Source: Nitrospinaceae bacterium (lineage in GTDB: Bacteria > Nitrospinota > Nitrospinia > Nitrospinales > Nitrospinaceae). Taken from it: DNA of 34,347 nucleotides. The position numbers were made by a program, and so were the translations under genes. The stretch covers positions 1 to 34,347 of the forward strand of contig JANQEK010000013.1 of the NCBI GenBank assembly GCA_028278405.1. The letters are read 5' to 3'. Below, in pieces: positions 17,267 to 30,604 of this stretch (the first letter of the stretch is position 1; the number at the start of each line of letters is the position of its first letter). Below the pieces are notes generated by a model. That model had not been told where the DNA came from and ran no database searches. It saw only the letters and a list, made by a program, of their open reading frames with translations.

Positions 17267-18724
17267 TCAGCGGAAGTAATTTTTATCTTCGAAGGGATCT
17301 TGCAAATCCATACTTCGCAAGTAGTTCTGGATTTCCTTTTTATAGGAAATGAAGGGGTCCAGCATAAGGAAGGGTTCTTCTTTGTTCAGGCGGAAACCGA
17401 TCCAGTCGATCAGGTAACCGGTCTGGCATTCGAGCAATGTTTTCACCAATTCGCCGCGGCCATCGGCGCGGGTACCCTTGGGGGCGTTGGATTGAGAGAA
17501 GAGGATGGCTTCGTCGGAAGTTTTACGGTAAGCGTCTCCGTTATTTTCCAGACCCCAATACAGACCATGCGCTTTATTGAGGTTATGAAATTCAAGGTCG
17601 AGACTTTTGATCCAGGAATCTTGCCACCCCAAATTTTCCGACTTCATGAATTCGGTGAGCATCCAGTATTTGCTGGCCCAGTCGACGCGACCGATCAGCG
17701 CTTCCGGCCCTTTGGGAATATCGTTTAGTACTGATTCCCAGGCTTCCAGCACCCAGTCGGTGTCACTGGAAGATCCAGCCAAGTATTTTTTCCCGACCTG
17801 CATGATTTCTTTCTGCAATTCCAGAGCGGTGGTTTTGTTGCCGTCCCGCAAAGTGATTTCCCACTTGAACTCCGGATCCCTGGAAATATCCCGCATGGCA
17901 TTCACGGAATCCGAAAGAATCCACGACGGGTCCGCCACTCCCAACTCGATCAACTCCATCATCAGCGACGTGGCACCCATCTTCAGAGCGCAGGCGAATT
18001 CGCTCATGTTGGAGTCGCCGACCAATAAATGAATGCGGCGATACTTGCTGGGATCGGACAACGGTTCGTCGCGGGTGTTGACAATGGCGCGATTGTATTG
18101 CACCCAGCGGTAAAATTCGTTGGGGATGTGATCCGCGCGCTGGGAAATCTGAAAGTTGACTTCATCCTCGTCTTTGCGTGTTTGGTGGATGTCGTCCCAA
18201 TCGCGGAACGGTTGCGGGTTGCAGGCACCGGTACGTCCGGTACCGGCGTAAATTTGCCGGGTCACCAGAAACGACGCCAGCAGGCGCAGGTTCTCGCGGT
18301 TGTCAAACTGAAACGCACGGCTGACCAGATAATTTTCATGGCATCCGAAAGTGGCGTTGGTTTCCAGATCGACGTTGTTCTTGATAAATGCTACCTGGTC
18401 GGCCCAACCCAATTCTTCCAACGCTTTTTGTACAATTTCGTCGCCGGCACGATCGAACGTGACCAGATCCACTAGGTTGGAGCATTCCGGGGACGCGTAT
18501 TCGAGGTGCCCCATGTCGAGATAAATACGGCCGCCGTTTGCGAGGAATCCGCCATTGCCGGGTGGTTCGTCGTTGGCGCGGTAATGCAAGTCGAGCACAC
18601 CCTGCTTCTGATCGAAAATATGATTCTTGATACGAACGGCGACATCGATCGGGCCGTATTTAAAATCATCCTCCTTGATCAGGAGACCGTATTCCGTTTC
18701 AATACCGTATATTCTGCGCTTCAT
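17267..18724 (-). CDS. pafA: PafA-type ligase for the Pup/UBact modifier
   Basis: ATP-dependent ligase that joins the modifier's C-terminal glutamate to lysine side chains of target proteins; glutamine-synthetase fold. The 485-residue protein starts with GIETEYG (Glu9 and Glu11 in the metal/ATP site), has the catalytic-loop region NGGRIYLDMGHLEYASPEC (candidate base Asp70), FIKNNVDLETNATFGCHENYLVSR, and RAIVNTRDEPLSD ... YRRIHLLVGDSNMSEF. It lacks the loop insertion seen in Dop, so it is assigned as PafA, not the deamidase. It ends the operon, 1 base after prcA. The catalytic loop is one residue shorter than the actinobacterial version I recall. Confidence 0.88.
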   Translation of the reverse strand: MKRRIYGIETEYGLLIKEDDFKYGPIDVAVRIKNHIFDQKQGVLDLHYRANDEPPGNGGFLANGGRIYLDMGHLEYASPECSNLVDLVTFDRAGDEIVQKALEELGWADQVAFIKNNVDLETNATFGCHENYLVSRAFQFDNRENLRLLASFLVTRQIYAGTGRTGACNPQPFRDWDDIHQTRKDEDEVNFQISQRADHIPNEFYRWVQYNRAIVNTRDEPLSDPSKYRRIHLLVGDSNMSEFACALKMGATSLMMELIELGVADPSWILSDSVNAMRDISRDPEFKWEITLRDGNKTTALELQKEIMQVGKKYLAGSSSDTDWVLEAWESVLNDIPKGPEALIGRVDWASKYWMLTEFMKSENLGWQDSWIKSLDLEFHNLNKAHGLYWGLENNGDAYRKTSDEAILFSQSNAPKGTRADGRGELVKTLLECQTGYLIDWIGFRLNKEEPFLMLDPFISYKKEIQNYLRSMDLQDPFEDKNYFR

Positions 18725-18725
18725 A

Positions 18726-19472
18726 TTATTTTGCCGCCGATTTTAAAGGTTCAATTTCGTCCGGGGTCACCACCCGGTACAGGGCCCTGCGTTCTGTCGC
18801 CGTGGAAAGCAATGCCGCCTCCAGCGTCCATCGGTCGAAGGCCTCGGCCAGGGTCGTCGGTTGTTCATCGGAGTCTTCCGATTCAGGTGAACCTTGCTTC
18901 TTTCCCTCTTCCCACAGGCGGCACGCTTCTTTCAAAGCCTGCTTCAGAGAGAGTGATGCAAAATCGGTCTGCTCGATTTGTTTCTGAATCCACTCGGATT
19001 CCTTGTCGTTGCCGGAAATCACCGCGCCTTTTTTAAACATCTCCCAATGCCCATCGTAGTTGAGCCGGAAGAACGACGGCCGGTTGTCGAAATCGATTTC
19101 AGCAAACAACAATTTGACCAGATAAGGCGCCCGCATCACCTCTTCGAAATTCTGTTTCATTGCGGGAGCAATGCCGAACTGAAGCAATCGGGCAAGCGTC
19201 ACATCCTTTTCCGAACGGTTGAACCCTTCCAGATGAGCCATATCCAGCAAAGTCATGCGGAGACGCTCGACATCGGCAGGATGTCCCAGGCTGCCCAGCG
19301 CAATGCGGTCATACACCTCAAATATTTTTCCGGGTTGGGCGGCAAACCCCATTACCAGCGCACCCTCTTTGTAAGGGACTGCGAGTACCGGTTGACCTTT
19401 TTTCAGTTTCTCCTGGACATAACTGTGGCGGGTGGAAATGGCCTCCATCCAGCGAAACGGTTCGTCAAACAT
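18726..19472 (-). CDS. prcA: Proteasome alpha subunit
   Basis: Forms the outer heptameric rings that gate the 20S chamber. The 248-residue protein has the alpha-type N-terminal helix (FDEPFRWMEAISTRHSYVQEKLKKG), followed by the Ntn-fold strand QPVLAVPYKEGALVMGF and the segment KIFEVYDRIALGSLGHPADVERLR. It has no catalytic N-terminal threonine, as expected for alpha. The sequence is strongly diverged from actinobacterial PrcA, but order and length agree. It lies 2 bases after prcB and 1 base before pafA. Confidence 0.88.
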   Translation of the reverse strand: MFDEPFRWMEAISTRHSYVQEKLKKGQPVLAVPYKEGALVMGFAAQPGKIFEVYDRIALGSLGHPADVERLRMTLLDMAHLEGFNRSEKDVTLARLLQFGIAPAMKQNFEEVMRAPYLVKLLFAEIDFDNRPSFFRLNYDGHWEMFKKGAVISGNDKESEWIQKQIEQTDFASLSLKQALKEACRLWEEGKKQGSPESEDSDEQPTTLAEAFDRWTLEAALLSTATERRALYRVVTPDEIEPLKSAAK

Positions 19473-19474
19473 GA

Positions 19475-20275
19475 TTATTTCCTTTTTGTGGATTCCTGGA
19501 AGAGGACAGCCAGTTCCTCTTCCGGCATGAACCGGTAACCTTGATCGGTGATACTGGCGATAACCGGATAGATTTTATCTTCGGGGCGGCCTTGTCCAGT
19601 GGCGCTGTCAAACTGCCCGGCGGTTTGCAACAGCCGAATGGCCAGTTGAGCGGCTTCCTTCAAAGTTCTTTGCCCAAGTTTTTGAGCACCCCAGAGGTCT
19701 TCGTATTCGAGGATACCGCGAATGACCGGCGATCCGGAGCCGGTGGCGGTGTGGGTCTGGATTTCAAACTGGGCTCCCAGAATATCGTAAAAATAAATGT
19801 AGGGCTTGGCTTCTCTTTGATCGTAGGACGCAAAAATGGGACTGACCGCGCCAACTCCCTGCATAGCGAGCCCCATATTATCCTTCAACAGTTTGGACAA
19901 GGCGCGGATTTTGCCTTCGGTGCTTAACGGCTGCAGTTGTGACCGTCGATAGTATTCGAAATTGTGCGAAAGAATGCGCGCCATTTCGAATGCCGTGGCG
20001 GGAACCCCGGCGATGGCCATCAGTGAAAAGTCGTCGATGGGAATCACCTTGTCGCACCGCTCGTACATAATGGCATTGCCAGCGGTGGCACGGCGATCTC
20101 CGGCAACGATCACACCATCCTTGAAATGGAACGCCATCACGGTCGTGCCCTGGGGCACACTGGCCTTGTCGATGGCGGTCAATCCCGCAATCGCCTTGGG
20201 CCAGGAATATCCCGACCGCTCGAGGAGATCGATAAAATCTCCCGGCCCGCTAAAATTTTCCGGTTTATCGCTCAT
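19475..20275 (-). CDS. prcB: Proteasome beta subunit (catalytic)
   Basis: Threonine protease of the inner rings of the 20S proteasome. The precursor has 266 residues with a 43-residue propeptide; cleavage before Thr44 in PQG-TTVMAF would expose the catalytic threonine. Counting from it, Asp17 (AGDRR) and Lys33 (CDKVI) fall at the catalytic positions and GSGS lies at the expected downstream site. The ATG at 20275 overlaps the modifier's TGA (ATGA, 20272-20275), a sign of translational coupling. All catalytic residues are present, so an active protease is expected. Confidence 0.93.
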   Translation of the reverse strand: MSDKPENFSGPGDFIDLLERSGYSWPKAIAGLTAIDKASVPQGTTVMAFHFKDGVIVAGDRRATAGNAIMYERCDKVIPIDDFSLMAIAGVPATAFEMARILSHNFEYYRRSQLQPLSTEGKIRALSKLLKDNMGLAMQGVGAVSPIFASYDQREAKPYIYFYDILGAQFEIQTHTATGSGSPVIRGILEYEDLWGAQKLGQRTLKEAAQLAIRLLQTAGQFDSATGQGRPEDKIYPVIASITDQGYRFMPEEELAVLFQESTKRK

Positions 20276-20448
20276 TGACCCGTTCGCTGTTTGTATTTTT
20301 CAGATTGCTTGGGGTCGACTTTTTTCATTCGCTTGAGAAGATCATCGCGCCCCGGCCGATTCACATCGGGTTTGGAAGGACCGCTGTCCTTCCTGTCGGG
20401 GGTGGATTCTTTCTTCTCTTCCCGTCTGAGGGGATCATTCATTTCCAT
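20272..20448 (-). CDS. Ubiquitin-like modifier (UBact/Pup-like), C-terminal Gly-Gln
   Basis: A 58-residue disordered-looking, charged protein: MEMNDPLRREEKKESTPDRK opens it, then a stretch with PSKPDVNRPGRDD, then a lysine-rich helix (LLKRMKKVDPKQSEKYK) and the ending QRTGQ. It matches the UBact type of Pup-like protein described from Nitrospinae and other Gram-negative phyla. Because it ends Gly-Gln, Dop-type deamidation is needed before ligation. ATG 20448 is favoured by GGAG at 20460-20457 (8-base spacing); ATG 20442 would give 56 residues and overlaps the dop TGA (ATGA, 20439-20442). The stop overlaps the prcB start. The gene is short enough for length-filtered gene callers to miss. Confidence 0.9.
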   Translation of the reverse strand: MEMNDPLRREEKKESTPDRKDSGPSKPDVNRPGRDDLLKRMKKVDPKQSEKYKQRTGQ

Positions 20449-21929
20449 GCAAACTGCTCCTTGTTTGAATCCAGGACCTGTAGGACATCTTCTTTGCTGA
20501 TGAGTCCGGACAGATCCAAATACTCACCATTGTTGAATTCGATTCCCGTCCAATGGATGTTTTTAATATGATCGCGCTCCTGATCGACTGCCTGCCCTCG
20601 AATCCGCGCCCGTGTATCCTGAGGGGCCCGGTGGACGGCGTCGTCGATTTTGTCCTGCTCAATCAATCCCGCTACGCTTCCCTGATCTCGCAGGCTGTAA
20701 TACAATCCGCGTTCCGGGTTAAGATTATGATACTCCAAATCGAGACTTTGTAAAATCGGGTCTTCCCAGTGCAAACCCTCCGCTTCCATAAAATCGCTGA
20801 AAAGGCTTTTCTTGATGGCCCAATCAATGCGATCGGCCAGCTTTTCCGGATGATGCCGGTGATCGTCCAAAGTCCGGCCCCATTCGCGGGTGACCCAGTC
20901 CCACTCTTCCTTATCGTCGGAGAAACCCGTGTGCTTCAAAGTCTGCTCCAGATACCACTCCTGGATTTCCAGAGGGGTGACGGTTTTCCCAGACTGCAAT
21001 TTTAAAAGAACTTTGCCGGTGGTGTCCCGCGACACGCGCTGGACATCGGCCACCGGGTCCGCCAACTCAAACGGTGTTTCCAGTTTGCGGGCACCGATCA
21101 GCGTCAATACCAGCCGGGTGGCGCCCACCTTCAACGCCGTCGCATAGGGCGACATATTGGCGTCTCCCAATATCAAATGCAAACGCCGGTAATCTTCCGT
21201 TGCATGCGGCTCATCGCGGGTATTGATGATGGGCCGCAGGATCATGGTCTCGATACTGAGAACGCTGTCTATAAAATCGGAGCGTTGTGCCAGCTGCAAA
21301 CCGGTGAATCCGTCTTCGTTCTTCCGTTCCGCTCCAACCTTTCCCGCACCGGCGTACAATTGCCGCGTTACCAGAAACGGCACCAGTTGATGGACCCAAT
21401 CCTCGAACGGCTGGTTCCGCGGAATTAAATAGTTGTCATGCGTGCCGTAACTGTGTCCGCTGTAATCCGTATTGTTTTTAAACAACTGTAAAAAGTCACC
21501 GCCCAGCTCCTGATTGCGGAGGCGGCAGCATTCGCCGACGATGTGCTCCCCGGCCAGATCGTGTGCTACCAGATCGAACAGCGTGCGGCATTCCGGCGTG
21601 CTGTATTCCGGGTGCGTGTGATCGTTATAAAAACGCGCACCGTTGGTCAACACCCGGTCGCTTTTCATTTCCCAATACGAGTAGGGCCGCTTGCGATCCT
21701 CTTCGCAGAATTCGTCTTCCTCTTCATCCTGGGCCAGCCGGGATACCTGAAACCCGCGCATATCCAAATGCGTGCGCTCCCGGTTATACGCCCAGACCTT
21801 GAATGCGCTCTTCACTCCACAGCGGGCCAAAAGCCACATCGATTCTTCGACCGGATCGGATTCCTCCTGATCCTCCCGGATAATGCCGTATTCCGTTTCG
21901 ATCCCCAGCAGAGGTACAATTTCGCTCAT
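20439..21929 (-). CDS. dop: Dop-type deamidase/depupylase
   Basis: Glutamine-synthetase-fold enzyme that deamidates the modifier's C-terminal glutamine and can remove it from targets. The 496-residue protein has GIETEYG (Glu11), the DMRGFQVSRLAQ segment near 56-67, which corresponds to the Dop loop in actinobacterial Dop, and the metal/catalytic stretch NGARFYNDHTHPEYSTPEC with Asp103. Later come LFKNNTDYSGHSYGTHDNYL, RPIINTRDEPHATEDYRRLHLILGDANMS and HRAPQDTRARIRGQ. The Dop loop and the NDHTHPEY signature distinguish it from PafA downstream. ATG 21929 overlaps the ARC stop (ATGA). Confidence 0.9.
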   Translation of the reverse strand: MSEIVPLLGIETEYGIIREDQEESDPVEESMWLLARCGVKSAFKVWAYNRERTHLDMRGFQVSRLAQDEEEDEFCEEDRKRPYSYWEMKSDRVLTNGARFYNDHTHPEYSTPECRTLFDLVAHDLAGEHIVGECCRLRNQELGGDFLQLFKNNTDYSGHSYGTHDNYLIPRNQPFEDWVHQLVPFLVTRQLYAGAGKVGAERKNEDGFTGLQLAQRSDFIDSVLSIETMILRPIINTRDEPHATEDYRRLHLILGDANMSPYATALKVGATRLVLTLIGARKLETPFELADPVADVQRVSRDTTGKVLLKLQSGKTVTPLEIQEWYLEQTLKHTGFSDDKEEWDWVTREWGRTLDDHRHHPEKLADRIDWAIKKSLFSDFMEAEGLHWEDPILQSLDLEYHNLNPERGLYYSLRDQGSVAGLIEQDKIDDAVHRAPQDTRARIRGQAVDQERDHIKNIHWTGIEFNNGEYLDLSGLISKEDVLQVLDSNKEQFAWK

Positions 21930-23548
21930 ATGATTGACCGGCTGAGGGTATCGGAGGCAGCCTGATCGGAATCGTTGGGCCGCCGTACCCGCGCCACGTT
22001 CTTGGGATCAAAGTCGAGCAACTGGAGCCAGTCTTCCATATTGGAATCGGCCGGCAAAACGCTGTTTTCCGTAAACTCGTTGTGCAGGGCTTGGATCATA
22101 TCGTCTTTGGTGATTTTCAATTCTTCCCCGGCAATAGCACGTTCAATGGAACGTTCCTTGGCGCGCAAAACGATTCCTTCCAGAATGGCTCCGGAAATAA
22201 AATCCTTCCAATAGAGTTTCTTGAACTCCCCACTGCGGAGAGTCAAAATCAGTGCTTCCCGCTCCGGAGATTTGCTGAACAAATGGTCCAGGAAAGGATG
22301 AATCAGGTCCTTCTCACGGTTCCCATCGATCGGGAGATTCGGCTTGAGATAGACGTTCAGGATAGATTCACAATCCTCACGATTGGGCCGCCCCACCTTG
22401 ATTTTGCGGTCGATGCGCCCCGGTCTTAAAATTGCCGGATCGATTAAATCCGGGCGGTTGGTGGCGAGGATCACCACCATTTCGCGTACCGATTGGATTC
22501 CATCCATCTCCGCACAGAACATTGGAACCAGGGTATTGGAGATATTGTTGACGCGCATGGCCTGCCGTGTGCCAAGCACCGATTCGGCCTCGTCGATGAA
22601 AATGAATGGAAGCTTTCCTTTTTCCTTGTACTCGCGTGCGCGTTTGAAAATTTCACGGACCTTGCGTTCCGATTCGCCGAGCCACATGTTAAGAATTTCA
22701 GGTCCCTTGACGTGGATGAACCGGCCTTCCAGATCCTTGCTGCCATCATCCTTGGATTTGAGCTGGTCGACGACATCGGACAAAATGGCTTTACCGATCA
22801 GCGTTTTGCCGCAACCGGGCGGGCCGTAAAACAGAAACCCTTTGGGCATCCGGTATTCCATCTTGTGAAGAATCTCTTCGTGCAGAATGGGGTATTCAAT
22901 AACCTTGCGGACTTCCTCGATGACTTTCTCCTGTCCACCCACCTGCTGCCAGGTAACGGGAATGTAATCGTCTTCCACCAGCGATTTGGACTGGCGTTTG
23001 GGAAGGCGCTTCATGATGACCTTCTGGGTTGGGTCGAGAACCACCTCATCCCCTTCTTTGAAAGTTTCCTGTTCCAGCCCGGTGCAGGGGATCACCATGG
23101 ATTCGGAAGTGTTGGAACCGCCACCGACCAGCCAATGACCATCATCCAAACGTGACACAATACGAGCGATCGGGCCTCTTTCGGGCAAAGGAAGTTTGGC
23201 GATTGCAACAAACCCTTCGTTGACTGCAACCTGGTCTCCTACCTTCAGCTCTCCGTCTTCAAGAATTTCTGGAGAAACCGCCGCCTGGTATTCGGTTCCG
23301 CCAACATTCAAACGGTACAAATCCTCCTGCCCCTTGCCGAGAATAGTCCCAATACGATGGGCCGGCAGCTTGAGCTGGCGGATGGTTTCTTCCAGTGTTT
23401 TGATTTTGAGATTATACTGCTGGGCAGACTGCTGGGCTTGCAGCAAGGCGTCGCGCAGATCGAAAATTTTTTCCTGAAGGTCCGGCCGGTCCGCCGTTTC
23501 CTCCAGCATTTGATCGATCAATTCTATAATATGGGTTGGATCTCCCAT
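21926..23548 (-). CDS. arc: Proteasome-associated AAA+ ATPase (ARC/Mpa)
   Basis: Hexameric unfoldase that feeds tagged proteins into PrcAB. The 540-residue protein has an N-terminal coiled coil (about residues 10-60), two OB-type domains (about 65-180), and one AAA+ domain with Walker A GPPGCGKT (242-249), pore-loop region EILNMWLGESE (284-294), Walker B FIFIDE (315-320), and ATNRPDLIDPAILRPGRIDRKI. The C-terminus ends LSRSII, not the GQYL found on actinobacterial Mpa/ARC. It heads the operon after a promoter at 23577-23606, with AAGG before ATG 23548. Confidence 0.94.
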   Translation of the reverse strand: MGDPTHIIELIDQMLEETADRPDLQEKIFDLRDALLQAQQSAQQYNLKIKTLEETIRQLKLPAHRIGTILGKGQEDLYRLNVGGTEYQAAVSPEILEDGELKVGDQVAVNEGFVAIAKLPLPERGPIARIVSRLDDGHWLVGGGSNTSESMVIPCTGLEQETFKEGDEVVLDPTQKVIMKRLPKRQSKSLVEDDYIPVTWQQVGGQEKVIEEVRKVIEYPILHEEILHKMEYRMPKGFLFYGPPGCGKTLIGKAILSDVVDQLKSKDDGSKDLEGRFIHVKGPEILNMWLGESERKVREIFKRAREYKEKGKLPFIFIDEAESVLGTRQAMRVNNISNTLVPMFCAEMDGIQSVREMVVILATNRPDLIDPAILRPGRIDRKIKVGRPNREDCESILNVYLKPNLPIDGNREKDLIHPFLDHLFSKSPEREALILTLRSGEFKKLYWKDFISGAILEGIVLRAKERSIERAIAGEELKITKDDMIQALHNEFTENSVLPADSNMEDWLQLLDFDPKNVARVRRPNDSDQAASDTLSRSII

Positions 23549-23766: not shown

Positions 23767-23859
23767 AATTACAATAACTTAAAAGGTTCCAACTTCTCAG
23801 GGAGATATTTCGGCAATCTCCCCTCATGCGGTACATCTGAGGGTTTGCCGAAACCAGCT

Positions 23860-25155
23860 ATGTTCCGAGTCAAAAACAAGCCTGTAATCGATAAGTGTAT
23901 CGTCAGCTTCAGCCACAATTGTTACGAAAGCCGAAGCCTGGCGGACAAATTTGCCCTGGAAAAAGCGCGAAGGGAAATCGCTCAGAAGAAAAAAGGTGTG
24001 AGCCATCTCATACTGCGTGCCGAGGGAGAAGAAATCGACCGGCTCAAGTTTCTGTTTCTGGTCCGGGGCATTCCCATCATGTGCTACGCCCTTGGCAATT
24101 TACTTATGTCGAGCCTGAAAGAAATCGTAGTGGTGGGATCGACAGAGGTAAAAATTATTCTGGAGCACTTTCTTAAAGTGATCGACACGCGTGGCAAGAA
24201 AGTAATGTTCGTCCATGAGGACCCGGACAACCTGATGTTGATCAACACCCTGATTCTGGGCCGCAACCAACTTTCCCTCGCCGCGAATGAACTGGTCCTG
24301 TTTCAACCGGGCGACCTGCCTTTCATGTACGAATTGGAAGGTGTGCTGCGGGACAAGGATCTCAAGCACCACAACCTGATTCTCTGGTTGAATTCACGGC
24401 AGGCCATGTTCCCGGAGTTCAAGGAGAACCCGGAAAGCGAGTTCGTAGGCCGCAATTACCATTACCGGGTTATCGCTGAAAAAGCCAAGCAGTTACACGA
24501 TGTGAAGGAACCCAACGTTTATCCCATCAATTTATCGGCGATTGAGGAAGATATCATCGAACTCCTGCACCAAACCCGTAAGGACGGAAAAATTCTCAAT
24601 GCAGGGTTGAGCAAAGCTTTGCGCTCTCCGACCCGCATGTTGATGCTGCTGCCGGTTCTGGCGAGACACTTCCGGCGCTTTGATTCCGACTTGAAACAAT
24701 TCCGACTGGATGATGATTTTAAGTTTGGAGCGCACCTAAAGAATTTTAACCAGGGAGCTTCTATTCTTCTGGACACTCCGTTTCTTGCCAAATTCAATGA
24801 CGACCCGGCTTTTGTTTCAGATGTAGACGCGCTGGAGGATTGGGAGGATTTTGAGTCCCTGGTTCATTTCGCGGAAGAGCGGAACGGAAGTGGTGGATTA
24901 ACAACCATCCATCCCTTCGGCAAGCAACTGTTACGGTTCAGGGAAGAGGCCATGCCCAAACTGAAGAAGCTCATCCCGATGTACGCCGATTTTCAGGGTT
25001 ACCTCAACCAATTGTATCGCTCGTTGGAAATGAAGTATGTCCCTTTCGATGAAAACGGCCGGTACGACACCCCCAATCTGCACACCCCTCAAATCGAAGT
25101 AGCCTATACCTGGTATGCGGACAAGACCCGAAAGTTCGCCCAAAGAATCGCCTAA
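23860..25155 (+). CDS. Protein with nucleotidyltransferase-like N-terminal half
   Basis: Not recognised as a named family. The 431-residue protein has a region at about residues 48-105 (SHLILRAEGEEIDRLKFLFLV, IPIMCYALGNLLMSSLKEIVVVGS) that resembles the N-terminal beta-alpha-beta of MobA/GlmU-type NTP transferases. ELVLFQPGDLPFMYELE (144-160) resembles their GDxP metal-binding loop. The usual glycine-rich GAGxGxR motif is degenerate, so activity is unclear. The C-terminal half has no evident match. ATG 23860 is chosen; TTG 23845 would add five residues and neither has a strong ribosome-binding site. It is divergent from the proteasome operon. Confidence 0.7.
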   Translation: MFRVKNKPVIDKCIVSFSHNCYESRSLADKFALEKARREIAQKKKGVSHLILRAEGEEIDRLKFLFLVRGIPIMCYALGNLLMSSLKEIVVVGSTEVKIILEHFLKVIDTRGKKVMFVHEDPDNLMLINTLILGRNQLSLAANELVLFQPGDLPFMYELEGVLRDKDLKHHNLILWLNSRQAMFPEFKENPESEFVGRNYHYRVIAEKAKQLHDVKEPNVYPINLSAIEEDIIELLHQTRKDGKILNAGLSKALRSPTRMLMLLPVLARHFRRFDSDLKQFRLDDDFKFGAHLKNFNQGASILLDTPFLAKFNDDPAFVSDVDALEDWEDFESLVHFAEERNGSGGLTTIHPFGKQLLRFREEAMPKLKKLIPMYADFQGYLNQLYRSLEMKYVPFDENGRYDTPNLHTPQIEVAYTWYADKTRKFAQRIA

Positions 25156-26350: not shown

Positions 26351-27547
26351 TTAATGCCGGGAAGATGACGTGTGGAGGAGATCGGCAAAATGCCTGCTGA
26401 TTTCCATTCGATCCTGATCCCCGAAGTGCAGGAAGCTTGCGCCCACATCATATGCCGATCCAGACGGCTGCGAACGGGTTACCCGCCCCACCATCACCAG
26501 TGGTTTTTCCCGTGACGAGAGAGGCACTTCCACCTGAATGCGACTTCCCATATTCAGGGGTTTCTGTGATTCAAACAACACCCCCGAAAGGCTGAGATCT
26601 TTTATGCGGCCCAATGCCGGCAACTGGCTGGTTTTCATTCCAAGTTCCTGGACTTTAATCGGACCGATCAGGTCCATTCGATAATTATGGCGTTTGTCTT
26701 CGGAGAATAAAACAATCTGATTCCGTCCCTGATTTTTGGCGCGGTACAGGGCCCGGTCGGCACACTCCACCATTTCCGCTGCGATATCGGTATCCAGAGG
26801 AAAGGTAGCAACTCCACCGGAAGCCGTGACTTGAATTCGCTTTCCTTCGAAACGCAAATACATTTTTTGTATTTTGTGCCGGATACGCTCGGCAAGAATC
26901 AACGCGTTGTATTTTTGTGTTCCAGGAAGCATCAGGATGATTTCCTCTCCGCCAAAACGGGCCGCGATGTCCTCGGCCCGTTTTTCTGATTCAATCAGTT
27001 TGGCGACAGACTTTAGTACCTCATCCCCGGCCTGGTGACCGTGGGTGTCGTTGATCGTTTTAAAGTGATCGAGATCAAAAAAGGCGAGAGAAAATTCAGT
27101 TCGATAACGTTTGCATCGGGAGGCTTCGCTCTTGAGAGCTTCCTCCAAATAAGACCGGTTGTACAGGCCGGTCAGACTGTCGCATTTGCAATAATGGCTG
27201 GTTTCTTCAAACAGATTCAATTCCACCACTTTGGGATGGAGCAACTCTCTGCGAACAGTCAACATGTAGTCACAAATTGCCGTGGTGAGGTTGACCGGAC
27301 GCGCCATGGAATCCGTCATCTGCTCCCGATGCCGAACCATGTCCTGCCAGATGAACCGTGCTTCGTCCTCCTTAAATTCCAGCTGGGTGAAGATATTCAG
27401 CAGAACGGGATAAACTTCTTCGCCCCGGGTTCCTGCCAGGTCAACCACATGACGCAAAAATTCATCCTCATTCTGTGAATAGGCACTCAGTTGCTGGATC
27501 AGGGAGGCTCTTAACAGCTCATTGGTATGGTCTTTTAATCTATTCAT
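26351..27547 (-). CDS. GGDEF-PilZ diguanylate cyclase, copy A
   Basis: Predicted c-di-GMP synthase that also binds c-di-GMP. The 398-residue protein has three parts. An N-terminal helical region (1-120) is shared with the gene at 27831-29021. A GGDEF domain begins CDSLTGLYNRSYLEEAL, with the active-site variant GGEEI at 199-203 and the inhibitory site RAED at 190-193, 5 residues before it. A C-terminal PilZ domain has RHNYR (286-290) and DLSLSG (317-322), the c-di-GMP-binding motifs. No membrane span or signal peptide, so it should be cytoplasmic. GGEEx active sites are often active. Possible feedback control through both I-site and PilZ. Confidence 0.88.
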   Translation of the reverse strand: MNRLKDHTNELLRASLIQQLSAYSQNEDEFLRHVVDLAGTRGEEVYPVLLNIFTQLEFKEDEARFIWQDMVRHREQMTDSMARPVNLTTAICDYMLTVRRELLHPKVVELNLFEETSHYCKCDSLTGLYNRSYLEEALKSEASRCKRYRTEFSLAFFDLDHFKTINDTHGHQAGDEVLKSVAKLIESEKRAEDIAARFGGEEIILMLPGTQKYNALILAERIRHKIQKMYLRFEGKRIQVTASGGVATFPLDTDIAAEMVECADRALYRAKNQGRNQIVLFSEDKRHNYRMDLIGPIKVQELGMKTSQLPALGRIKDLSLSGVLFESQKPLNMGSRIQVEVPLSSREKPLVMVGRVTRSQPSGSAYDVGASFLHFGDQDRMEISRHFADLLHTSSSRH

Positions 27548-27830: not shown

Positions 27831-29021
27831 TCAGGATGCGGGCATTACCTTCAGAAACGAACTCAGCTCTCTGCGATCAGCCCCTTGCAGTTGAACAAAG
27901 CTGACGCCGATGTCATAGTGCTCGTCGAACACTTCCACGCGCACTACGGTTCCGACCAGAATAATGGGATTATCCTTGCTGGGAATGGGAACTTCCAATT
28001 GAATGTTGGTTCCCATTTCCATTGGATCTGCAGATTCAAACATGATCCCCGAAAGGCTGAGGTCCTTGCCTCTGGCAGAAATCTGATTGTGGCCAACCCA
28101 TTTTCCCAACGGCTGGACTTGAACTTCACCGGCAAAATCAATACGTACGTACTGGCGTTTGTCGATGGAATAGAGACAAATCCGGTTTTTACCTTCAGAT
28201 TTTGCGCGGTACAACGCCTGGTCCGCACAATGAATGAGTTTGTTAGCGTCAACTGCGTCCTGGGGAAAGGTCGCAATCCCGCCGCTCACTGAAATCTGAA
28301 TCTTGTTGCCGTCAAAAACAAGGGGCATTTCCTGGATTTTCTTCCGTATCCGCTCTGCTTTGATAATTGTGTTGACCTTGTTGGTTTCGGGCAAAACAAT
28401 CACCAATTCCTCACCCCCGTAACGGGCCACCACATCTTCCTCCCGTTTTTCTTTAATAATGAGGTTTGCCACTTTCTTGAGGACAAAATCTCCGGCGAGG
28501 TGCCCCAGACTGTCATTTACTTTTTTAAAATCATCCAGATCCAGAAATAGAATGGAAAATTCAGTGTCGTAACGCCGCGCCCGGGAAATTTCACCACTCA
28601 GAGATTCCTCAAAGTAGCCCCGGTTGTACAGGCCGGTTAATGAATCGCATTTTGAAAAATGGTTGGCTTCTTCAAAAACTTTGAGCTCAACCACCTTGGG
28701 ATAGTTGAAGGATTTTTTTATGGTCAGAAAATAATCGCAAATCGCTGTCAGCAAATTGACCTGCCGCTTGAAGGAAGCACTCATATCCTTGCGATGTTTC
28801 AAAATGCCATTCCAGATTTCCTTGGCTTCATCCTGACTGAAGTCCAGCTGAGTGAAAATGTTCAGTAATACCGGGAAGATTAAATCTCCTTCCGAATGCG
28901 CAATATGTTCCAGCTCTTGTAAAAATTTTTCCTCGTCTTCCCCATGGTTTTTCATAAATCCAATGATGGATTCCCGCAGGGGCTGGATATTTTCGATGCT
29001 CTGGACAGCTTTATCTACCAT
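27831..29021 (-). CDS. GGDEF-PilZ diguanylate cyclase, copy B
   Basis: Paralog of the protein at 26351-27547. The 396-residue protein has the same N-terminal region (including YPKVVELKVFEEANHFSKCDSLTGLYNR into the GGDEF start), active-site GGEEL at 202-206, inhibitory site REED at 193-196, and PilZ motifs RQYVR (289-293) and DLSLSG (320-325). The first 20 residues and C-terminal ends differ most from copy A. It is cytoplasmic by sequence. The two genes are tandem with a 283-base gap, consistent with a gene duplication, each probably with its own promoter. Confidence 0.88.
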   Translation of the reverse strand: MVDKAVQSIENIQPLRESIIGFMKNHGEDEEKFLQELEHIAHSEGDLIFPVLLNIFTQLDFSQDEAKEIWNGILKHRKDMSASFKRQVNLLTAICDYFLTIKKSFNYPKVVELKVFEEANHFSKCDSLTGLYNRGYFEESLSGEISRARRYDTEFSILFLDLDDFKKVNDSLGHLAGDFVLKKVANLIIKEKREEDVVARYGGEELVIVLPETNKVNTIIKAERIRKKIQEMPLVFDGNKIQISVSGGIATFPQDAVDANKLIHCADQALYRAKSEGKNRICLYSIDKRQYVRIDFAGEVQVQPLGKWVGHNQISARGKDLSLSGIMFESADPMEMGTNIQLEVPIPSKDNPIILVGTVVRVEVFDEHYDIGVSFVQLQGADRRELSSFLKVMPAS

Positions 29022-29224: not shown

Positions 29225-29252
29225 AATAAATACCCCTAAGGGGGTATTTATT
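29225..29252 (-). terminator. Intrinsic terminator of the LRR gene
   Basis: AATAAATACCCC (29225-29236) and GGGGTATTTATT (29241-29252) form a perfect 12-bp stem with a 4-base loop; the base of the stem touches the LRR gene's stop codon (29252-29254). Read on the - strand the stem ends in a T/A-rich stretch (ATTATTA), the usual form of an intrinsic terminator without a long T-run. Confidence 0.55.
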
Positions 29253-30604
29253 TACACTAACTCTAGGGTTTTTAGCTGCGTCAAGTTCTTGGAGTACCGC
29301 AGTGCATCTTCTCCCGCAGAGGTCAATTTGTTCCCAATCACATTGAGAAAAGCCAACTTATTTAAAATTTTTGACTCCGCCAGATATTGCGCTCCTTCAT
29401 CTCCAATTACATTCAAACCAAGAACCAGCGTCTGCAGGCTGGACAGGGCCGCAGACTCCGCTATGGCCTTCGCACCCTGTGCGTGAATCCAGTTGTCCTG
29501 CTCCAGATGCAACTCCTCCATCTGGGTCAGGGTCGTACTCTGGGCAAGAGCTTCTACCCCCTGATCCGAAATGTTGTTGTCGTTTAAGCGGAGATATTTG
29601 AGCTGGGTTAAATGCGGGCTTTGCGCCAGGGCCAGGGCTCCTTCTGCATTGAGTTGGTTTTCGCCGAGATCGAGTCTCTCCAGATGCCTGCTGTTTTCCG
29701 ATTGCGCCAGCGCTTCAGTACCCTCGGCTCTCAGATCGTTGTTGTTGAGATCCAGCGAAGTCAGTTGGGTGAGTGTTTTTGATTGCGCGAGAGATATTGC
29801 ACTGTCCGTAGTCAATCCGTTGCATTTAAGATTCAAGACTTCCAGTTGAGCTCCGAGAGGGGATTCGGCGAGGGCATAGACTCCGTCATCTCCCACATGG
29901 TTGTTGTCGAGATTGAGACTTTTCAAGTTGGGAAAGACCTCGGAGCGCGCCAATGCTTCGAGCCCCTGGTCCGTCAGGTGATTGTCCGAAAGGTTCAGGG
30001 ATTCGAGTTGCTCCATCGGCGCTCCATCGGCAATTTTCTGAAGTCCCTCGTCGCCGATGCCGGTATCGGTCAAATTCAACTCTTTTAATTGCGATCCCAA
30101 ACCAGACCCGGCCAGGGCCTTGATGCCGATTGCCTCGACCCGGTTGTAGGACACATCAAGATGCGTAAGGCCGGTCAGCGTCTGGCTGAGCGCCAGCGCC
30201 TTCAGTCCCACCGGACCGATCTCGTTGCTGGCAACACTCAATTTTTTGAGTTGGCTGAAGGTTTTAACTTTGGAGATGAAAAACAACCCGTCGTCATCGA
30301 CGTTGTTGTTGTCGATGATGAACTCATCGAGACCGGTCAGATGAGGCGACATGCACAAATGCTGCAGGCCGGCGGTGGTGAGGCTGGTCTCTCTTAAATT
30401 GAGGACCTTCAATTGCGACAGCGGCGACAGATCAGCCAACAGCTTGCAATCGTCCTCCGACAAATTATGACGGATCAGGTCCAGCGACTTGGAGTTCTGC
30501 TCCATCTTGTGCTGGAGCACACTCAGAAGGTCCTCGGACTCTGTGTATTTCTCGAAATACCGGAGAAACTCCAGACTGTCGTCAATGTCTTTGGCTTCCG
30601 CCAT
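29252..30604 (-). CDS. Leucine-rich-repeat protein, RNI-like
   Basis: A 450-residue protein made almost entirely of 14-15 leucine-rich repeats of about 24-26 residues from about residue 55 on. Typical units are LKSLNLDNNHVGDDGVYALAES and LTSLDLNNNDLRAEGTEALAQS. The repeats are of the ribonuclease-inhibitor type with LxxLxLxxN and ALA turns. The first 55 residues are acidic and helical (MAEAKDIDDSLEFLRYFEKYTES) and may form a cap. No signal peptide or membrane span, so it is probably cytoplasmic, unlike many bacterial LRR proteins. The binding partner is unknown. A promoter lies at 30637-30645 on the - strand. Confidence 0.87.
   Translation of the reverse strand: MAEAKDIDDSLEFLRYFEKYTESEDLLSVLQHKMEQNSKSLDLIRHNLSEDDCKLLADLSPLSQLKVLNLRETSLTTAGLQHLCMSPHLTGLDEFIIDNNNVDDDGLFFISKVKTFSQLKKLSVASNEIGPVGLKALALSQTLTGLTHLDVSYNRVEAIGIKALAGSGLGSQLKELNLTDTGIGDEGLQKIADGAPMEQLESLNLSDNHLTDQGLEALARSEVFPNLKSLNLDNNHVGDDGVYALAESPLGAQLEVLNLKCNGLTTDSAISLAQSKTLTQLTSLDLNNNDLRAEGTEALAQSENSRHLERLDLGENQLNAEGALALAQSPHLTQLKYLRLNDNNISDQGVEALAQSTTLTQMEELHLEQDNWIHAQGAKAIAESAALSSLQTLVLGLNVIGDEGAQYLAESKILNKLAFLNVIGNKLTSAGEDALRYSKNLTQLKTLELV

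Follow-up and report, generated by a model that had tools for sequence, protein, structure and literature searches.

Genes of the operon

Positions 17267-23548 of the window (the whole stretch of 34,347 nucleotides that was analysed) hold six intact open reading frames arranged head to tail on the minus strand, in the order ARC-Dop-tag-PrcB-PrcA-PafA. The ATPase ARC (21926-23548, 540 aa) carries the Pfam AAA, OB_N and OB_C domains, and its closest solved match is Mtb Mpa. It is followed by a Dop-type deamidase/de-conjugase (20439-21929, 496 aa; PF03136, 499.8 bits), a UBact tag (20272-20448, 58 aa), the 20S beta subunit PrcB (19475-20275, 266 aa; PF00227, 1.8e-30; TIGR03690, 3.4e-49), a divergent 20S alpha subunit PrcA (18726-19472, 248 aa; PF00227, 3.7e-8; TIGR03691, 2.2e-15) and a PafA-type tag-protein ligase (17267-18724, 485 aa; PF03136, 418.6 bits). 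To one digit, the E-values by profile name are 1e-149 and 4e-125 for Pup_ligase (Dop and PafA), 5e-21 for UBact, and 2e-30 and 4e-8 for Proteasome (PrcB and PrcA). The initial annotation, which had been made from the letters alone, named the same six genes on a single strand, and the Pfam and NCBIfam profiles agree with its names. Its description of the junctions as 4-base overlaps or gaps of 1-2 bases holds for four of them (ARC/Dop and tag/PrcB overlap by 4 nt; gaps of 2 and 1 nt separate PrcB from PrcA and PrcA from PafA) and fails for Dop/tag, where the overlap is 10 nt counted from the first ATG of the tag and 4 nt counted from the second (20442). The proposed identity of the gene order with that of actinobacteria was borne out, as it matches the order described there as rigidly conserved (PMC3511204), and the setting is indeed Gram-negative, the host being a member of Nitrospinota. 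Promoter and terminator scans gave nothing specific, and Rfam returned no RNA families.

The tag, which ends in KYKQRTGQ, scores 74.6 bits against PF20513 (curated cut-off 27.8) and 74.7 bits against NF033388 (cut-off 35), placing it in the UBact-type family that had been suggested for it. No Pup profile in Pfam or NCBIfam matched it at E 0.01, and its end is TGQ, not GG[QE]. If started at the second ATG, the tag is 56 aa long and begins with the invariant Met of the family (Met3) in the tag alignment (A1), in which the C-terminal RTG is also invariant. RTGQ ends 53 of the 54 complete Nitrospinota tags and RTGE the remaining one (L046:9559-9729), the sole Nitrospinota tag found with a Glu end, which Dop still adjoins; RTGE also ends all three Nitrospirota tags. 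A tag ending in Gln implies that deamidation by Dop is needed. Dop is, moreover, retained in Pup-E actinobacteria (PMC3511204), and its being kept even beside Glu-ended tags fits its second role, tag removal. A sequence search found no solved structure of any UBact tag.

Dop and PafA both fall inside PF03136, one nearer Dop and the other nearer PafA, as the initial annotation had it. The first scores higher with TIGR03688 (Dop; 409.6 bits) than with TIGR03686 (PafA; 371.9 bits) and, among solved structures, matches Dop (4b0r, E = 3.5e-94) better than PafA (6e-71). The second scores higher with TIGR03686 (327.8 bits) than with the Dop model (302.9 bits) and matches PafA (4b0t, E = 5.9e-74) better than Dop (9.8e-66). 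In alignments to 4b0r, 4b0t and 4bjr the catalytic Asp is aligned in both proteins; the PafA-Pup structure 4bjr has N where 4b0t has D at this position, as expected of an active-site mutant.

PrcB has a propeptide of 43 residues, and mature Thr1, Asp17 and Lys33 are residues 44, 60 and 76 of the precursor. The catalytic residues first listed as Thr44, Asp17 and Lys33 are therefore correct, Thr44 being mature Thr1 and the other two being given in mature numbering; all three are invariant in 54 aligned PrcBs. PrcA matches Mtb PrcA at E = 2e-9, and its Lys49, the predicted activator-docking lysine of the alpha pocket, does not vary in any of the 50 sequences compared, among which are actinobacterial ones. 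Elsewhere in the same genome (G000:C34:4130-4642) lies a gene for a short PF00227 protein of HslV size, suggesting that two self-compartmentalising proteases of this fold coexist in the genome that carries the operon.

The C-terminal tail of ARC

ARC is composed of a helical N-terminus, two OB domains, an AAA domain in which the Walker motifs noted initially are present, C-terminal beta-grasp-like strands and a tail ending in RSII. Both by sequence and by fold its best match is Mtb Mpa; TIGR03689, the actinobacterial Mpa/ARC equivalog, is still its best-scoring family at 386.9 bits (cut-off 504.75). The pore loop, residues 289-291, reads W-L-G (W-V-G in locus L162), F-V-G being found in mycobacterial Mpa and Y-V-G in Nonomuraea.

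Opening of the 20S gate by mycobacterial Mpa and PafE depends both on their GQYL end and on an alpha-subunit lysine, the presumed binding partner of such tails (PMC12288473, PMC8142254). A GQYL end was present in none of the 47 Nitrospinota or three Nitrospirota UBact ARCs compared; both actinobacterial control ARCs (L186 and L187) end in GQYL, these two and the three UBact loci making up the comparison set outside Nitrospinota. The distance from the conserved Trp507 to the end of ARC is 32-33 residues in UBact ARCs versus 39-40 in actinobacteria. All 47 Nitrospinota ARCs with a readable C-terminus end in T-x-x-R-S-[IVM]-[IL], with T-7, R-4 and S-3 invariant (47/47) and the preceding residues varying freely. 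Given that the three invariant residues are encoded by 4, 5 and 4 different codons, respectively, their conservation points to selection on the protein level. In 45 of 47 ARCs the final Ile is encoded by ATA, a choice that is constrained by the overlap with the ATG of Dop in most genomes. The three Nitrospirota UBact ARCs end in -QII, -QII and -TII, and two of these loci show no overlap between ARC and Dop.

In a single-chain AlphaFold2 model of ARC (29 sequences), which is of moderate quality only (mean pLDDT 74.6, pTM 0.49), the beta-grasp region forms strands and the tail, residues 527-540, is disordered (pLDDT <50). A peptide conserved at the tip of a disordered tail has the look of a docking motif, and from its conservation we hypothesize that R-S-[IV]-I replaces GQYL as the peptide that docks on the alpha ring. 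An equally fair reading of the sequences is that RS-I could be an older shared structural element that was kept when the docking tail was lost; MAFFT aligned the RSI of UBact ARCs with RSI/RAI upstream of GQYL in actinobacteria. More broadly, UBact ATPases may attach to the 20S core, or work together with it, through R-S-[IV]-I (x-x-I-I in Nitrospirota) or by some other route, and not through the GQYL or HbYX tyrosine motif known for proteasomal ATPases from the cited papers, a view we hold tentatively and would put a little short of an even chance.

Tagging and the 20S core might, alternatively, be only loosely coupled. ARC lacking GQYL would then not dock on PrcAB alone and would instead mainly aid tag-stripping by Dop or remodel tagged proteins, while another activator would open the proteasome. 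Such an arrangement would be consistent with the missing GQYL and the shortened stretch after Trp507, and actinobacteria devoid of proteasomes do keep ARC together with the tagging genes (PMC3511204). We nevertheless consider it unlikely, because PrcAB and ARC stay together in the operon across nearly the whole order, and because strict conservation of the C-terminus of ARC goes together with an invariant docking lysine in PrcA. A second activator sharing the RSII tail was likewise rejected: in a whole-genome pattern search for RS[IV]I before TAA or TGA (TAG stops lay outside the pattern), ARC was the only plausible gene.

Docking through R-S-[IV]-I, if true, would add a further docking chemistry to those of proteasome activators. 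With GQYL absent and the alpha pocket otherwise intact, how a UBact-type ARC opens the proteasome becomes a question testable with recombinant proteins. The ARC tail is the most useful new lead of this analysis, and its peculiarity may already have been noted in the literature.

Distribution and origin of the operon

Scanning named genomes with the tag alignment revealed 53 Nitrospinota loci, whose records bear the label Nitrospina, Nitrospinaceae or Nitrospinota and in two cases Nitrospirae, and a further three loci in Nitrospirota. Within the phylum, the tag was found in 58 of 77 genomes, all of them in the order to which the window belongs (58/64); when fragments of Dop and PafA are added, the count for the operon rises to at least 60 of the 64 genomes of the order. 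No tag was found in the 13 genomes sampled from the remaining families of the class. Among the sister genomes tested there was no protein of the Pup-ligase family, and most had HslV-type PF00227 proteins. The four remaining genomes of the order also lack the NadA flank, and in two of these four a contig ends no more than about 410 bases from where the neighbouring gene begins, on the side expected for ARC. True losses of the operon inside the order were therefore rejected; since the absences can be explained by assembly, the system is probably universal in the order.

In the phylogenetic tree, PafAs of Nitrospinota and Nitrospirota cluster together with good support, and their Dops make up a second such group (92/89), suggesting that the duplication behind the pair probably preceded its sharing between the two phyla. 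The tree includes only four actinobacterial sequences, and the direction from donor to recipient is not readable from it. The PafA of C. glutamicum sits among actinobacterial Dops on a very long branch (2.98), which is most likely an artefact of its being the lone actinobacterial PafA in the tree. All five partner proteins (ARC, Dop, PrcB, PrcA and PafA) score under the NCBI equivalog cut-offs for the actinobacterial families, as expected of a branch separate from actinobacteria. We are highly confident that the operon belongs to the UBact branch of bacterial tag-proteasome systems and that it has passed vertically down the order, at the base of which it was acquired or retained.

A recent transfer of an ordinary Pup system out of an actinobacterium would bring with it the actinobacterial gene order, which this operon has (PMC3511204), and Hecht et al. 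proposed an actinobacterial origin with later transfers, including to ancestors of Nitrospirae and Nitrospinae (PMC7947786). However, the tag lacks a Pup profile match and ends in RTGQ, the partners all fall short of the actinobacterial cut-offs, and Dop and PafA group with Nitrospirota and not with actinobacteria. The operon is also order-wide, with the PrcB tree grouping its members by genus code. The tag profile and the tree lead us to reject a recent transfer, which we regard as very improbable; an ancient transfer from actinobacteria is possible. That the contig is foreign to the genome has a negligible probability: the genome is a 47-contig draft of which the window is one whole contig, but the same syntenic gene set turns up in over 40 independent assemblies, single-contig genomes among them, and in most genomes of the order the operon lies between a divergent 430-aa gene and TonB on one side and a HIT-NadA pair on the other, so the operon is not a binning artefact and contamination is rejected.

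Some members of the order depart from the common arrangement. In two genera (g12 and g16), which form one clade of the PrcB tree (95/97), the order is ARC-Dop-(PrcB2)-PrcA-tag-PrcB-PafA, for example in L036, L041, L065 and L069. This order would result from a single rearrangement in which tag-PrcB-PrcA was duplicated in tandem and the copies then lost complementary genes. The second beta-subunit gene, PrcB2, is intact in three g16 loci (L033:4659-5459, L043:5233-6042 and L183:2383-3183), broken in L034 and L184, and cut by the contig end in L084. Its product keeps Thr1, Asp17 and Lys33, has GAGA in place of GSGS and lacks the Thr-Gly of DSATG; none of the residues lost varies among the other 54 PrcBs. 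PrcB2 is possibly a beta subunit that is altered or has no activity. In one genome (G045; L052 and L180) the operon is split, with ARC-Dop-tag-PrcB and PrcA-PafA on different contigs and away from the usual neighbours. A similar split was observed in another (G046; L079 and L181), where PafA was not seen and the second contig is cut.

The divergent 430-aa neighbour (23845-25155, plus strand) was found, among the genomes searched, only in the order of the window. Its model (mean pLDDT 86) has a fold like that of the sugar nucleotidyltransferases RmlA and GlmU, with a weak match to NTP_transf_3 by sequence. Nothing visible links it to the proteasome or to proteolysis. Further along the window lie two adjoining diguanylate cyclase genes on the minus strand (26351-27547 and 27831-29021), the first with GGDEF and PilZ domains and the second a clear paralogue by sequence. 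They are followed by a minus-strand gene (29252-30604) whose product consists almost entirely of leucine-rich repeats (LRR_6); it adjoins an SMC gene and is conserved in the family of the window.

Proposed pathway and relation to known systems

Bacterial proteasomes that work with a protein tag have been studied almost only in actinobacteria, and no experimental work on a Nitrospinota component turned up in the literature searched. What was observed here is the homology of the parts, their catalytic residues and conservation, the order of the genes and an ARC tail that differs from the Mpa tail; every reaction step proposed below is borrowed from the actinobacterial system. By analogy with pupylation, Dop would convert the C-terminal Gln of the tag to Glu, and PafA, using ATP, would attach the tag by this Glu to a lysine on a target protein, a conjugation that Dop could undo. 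As in actinobacteria, the N-terminal coiled coil of ARC would bind the tag and the W-L-G pore loops would unfold the target, which would be fed into a chamber of 14 PrcA and 14 PrcB subunits and cut by Thr1 of PrcB. In Nitrospinota, to which marine nitrite oxidisers belong, the presence of an order-wide, syntenic system of this kind suggests a core role for it.

The UBact system was reportedly described in 2017 by Lehmann, Ciechanover and colleagues. The operon is an ordinary representative of this already described system, and its family is catalogued (PF20513, NF033388; Nitrospirota, Nitrospinota and other Gram-negative phyla). It shares with that system the tag profile, the RTG[QE] end, PafA, Dop, ARC, PrcA and PrcB. 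The three Nitrospirota UBact loci share its gene order, and their ARC tails finish in -II; these loci differ in that their tags end in Glu, whereas nearly all Nitrospinota tags end in Gln, and their ARC is about 44% identical. A set of Dop, PafA and tag is not known to be part of the archaeal PAN-20S system, which resembles the operon in its 20S core and in the AAA-OB architecture of its ATPase. The HbYX tail of PAN-type ATPases (PMC8142254) is absent from UBact ARC. The actinobacterial Pup-proteasome is similar in its enzyme families, catalytic residues, gene order, ARC domain layout and the docking lysine of the alpha ring. In contrast to it, the tag here has neither GG[QE] nor a Pup profile match, and UBact-type ARC lacks GQYL, is about 7 residues shorter at its C-terminus and carries W-L-G in the pore loop in place of F-V-G or Y-V-G.
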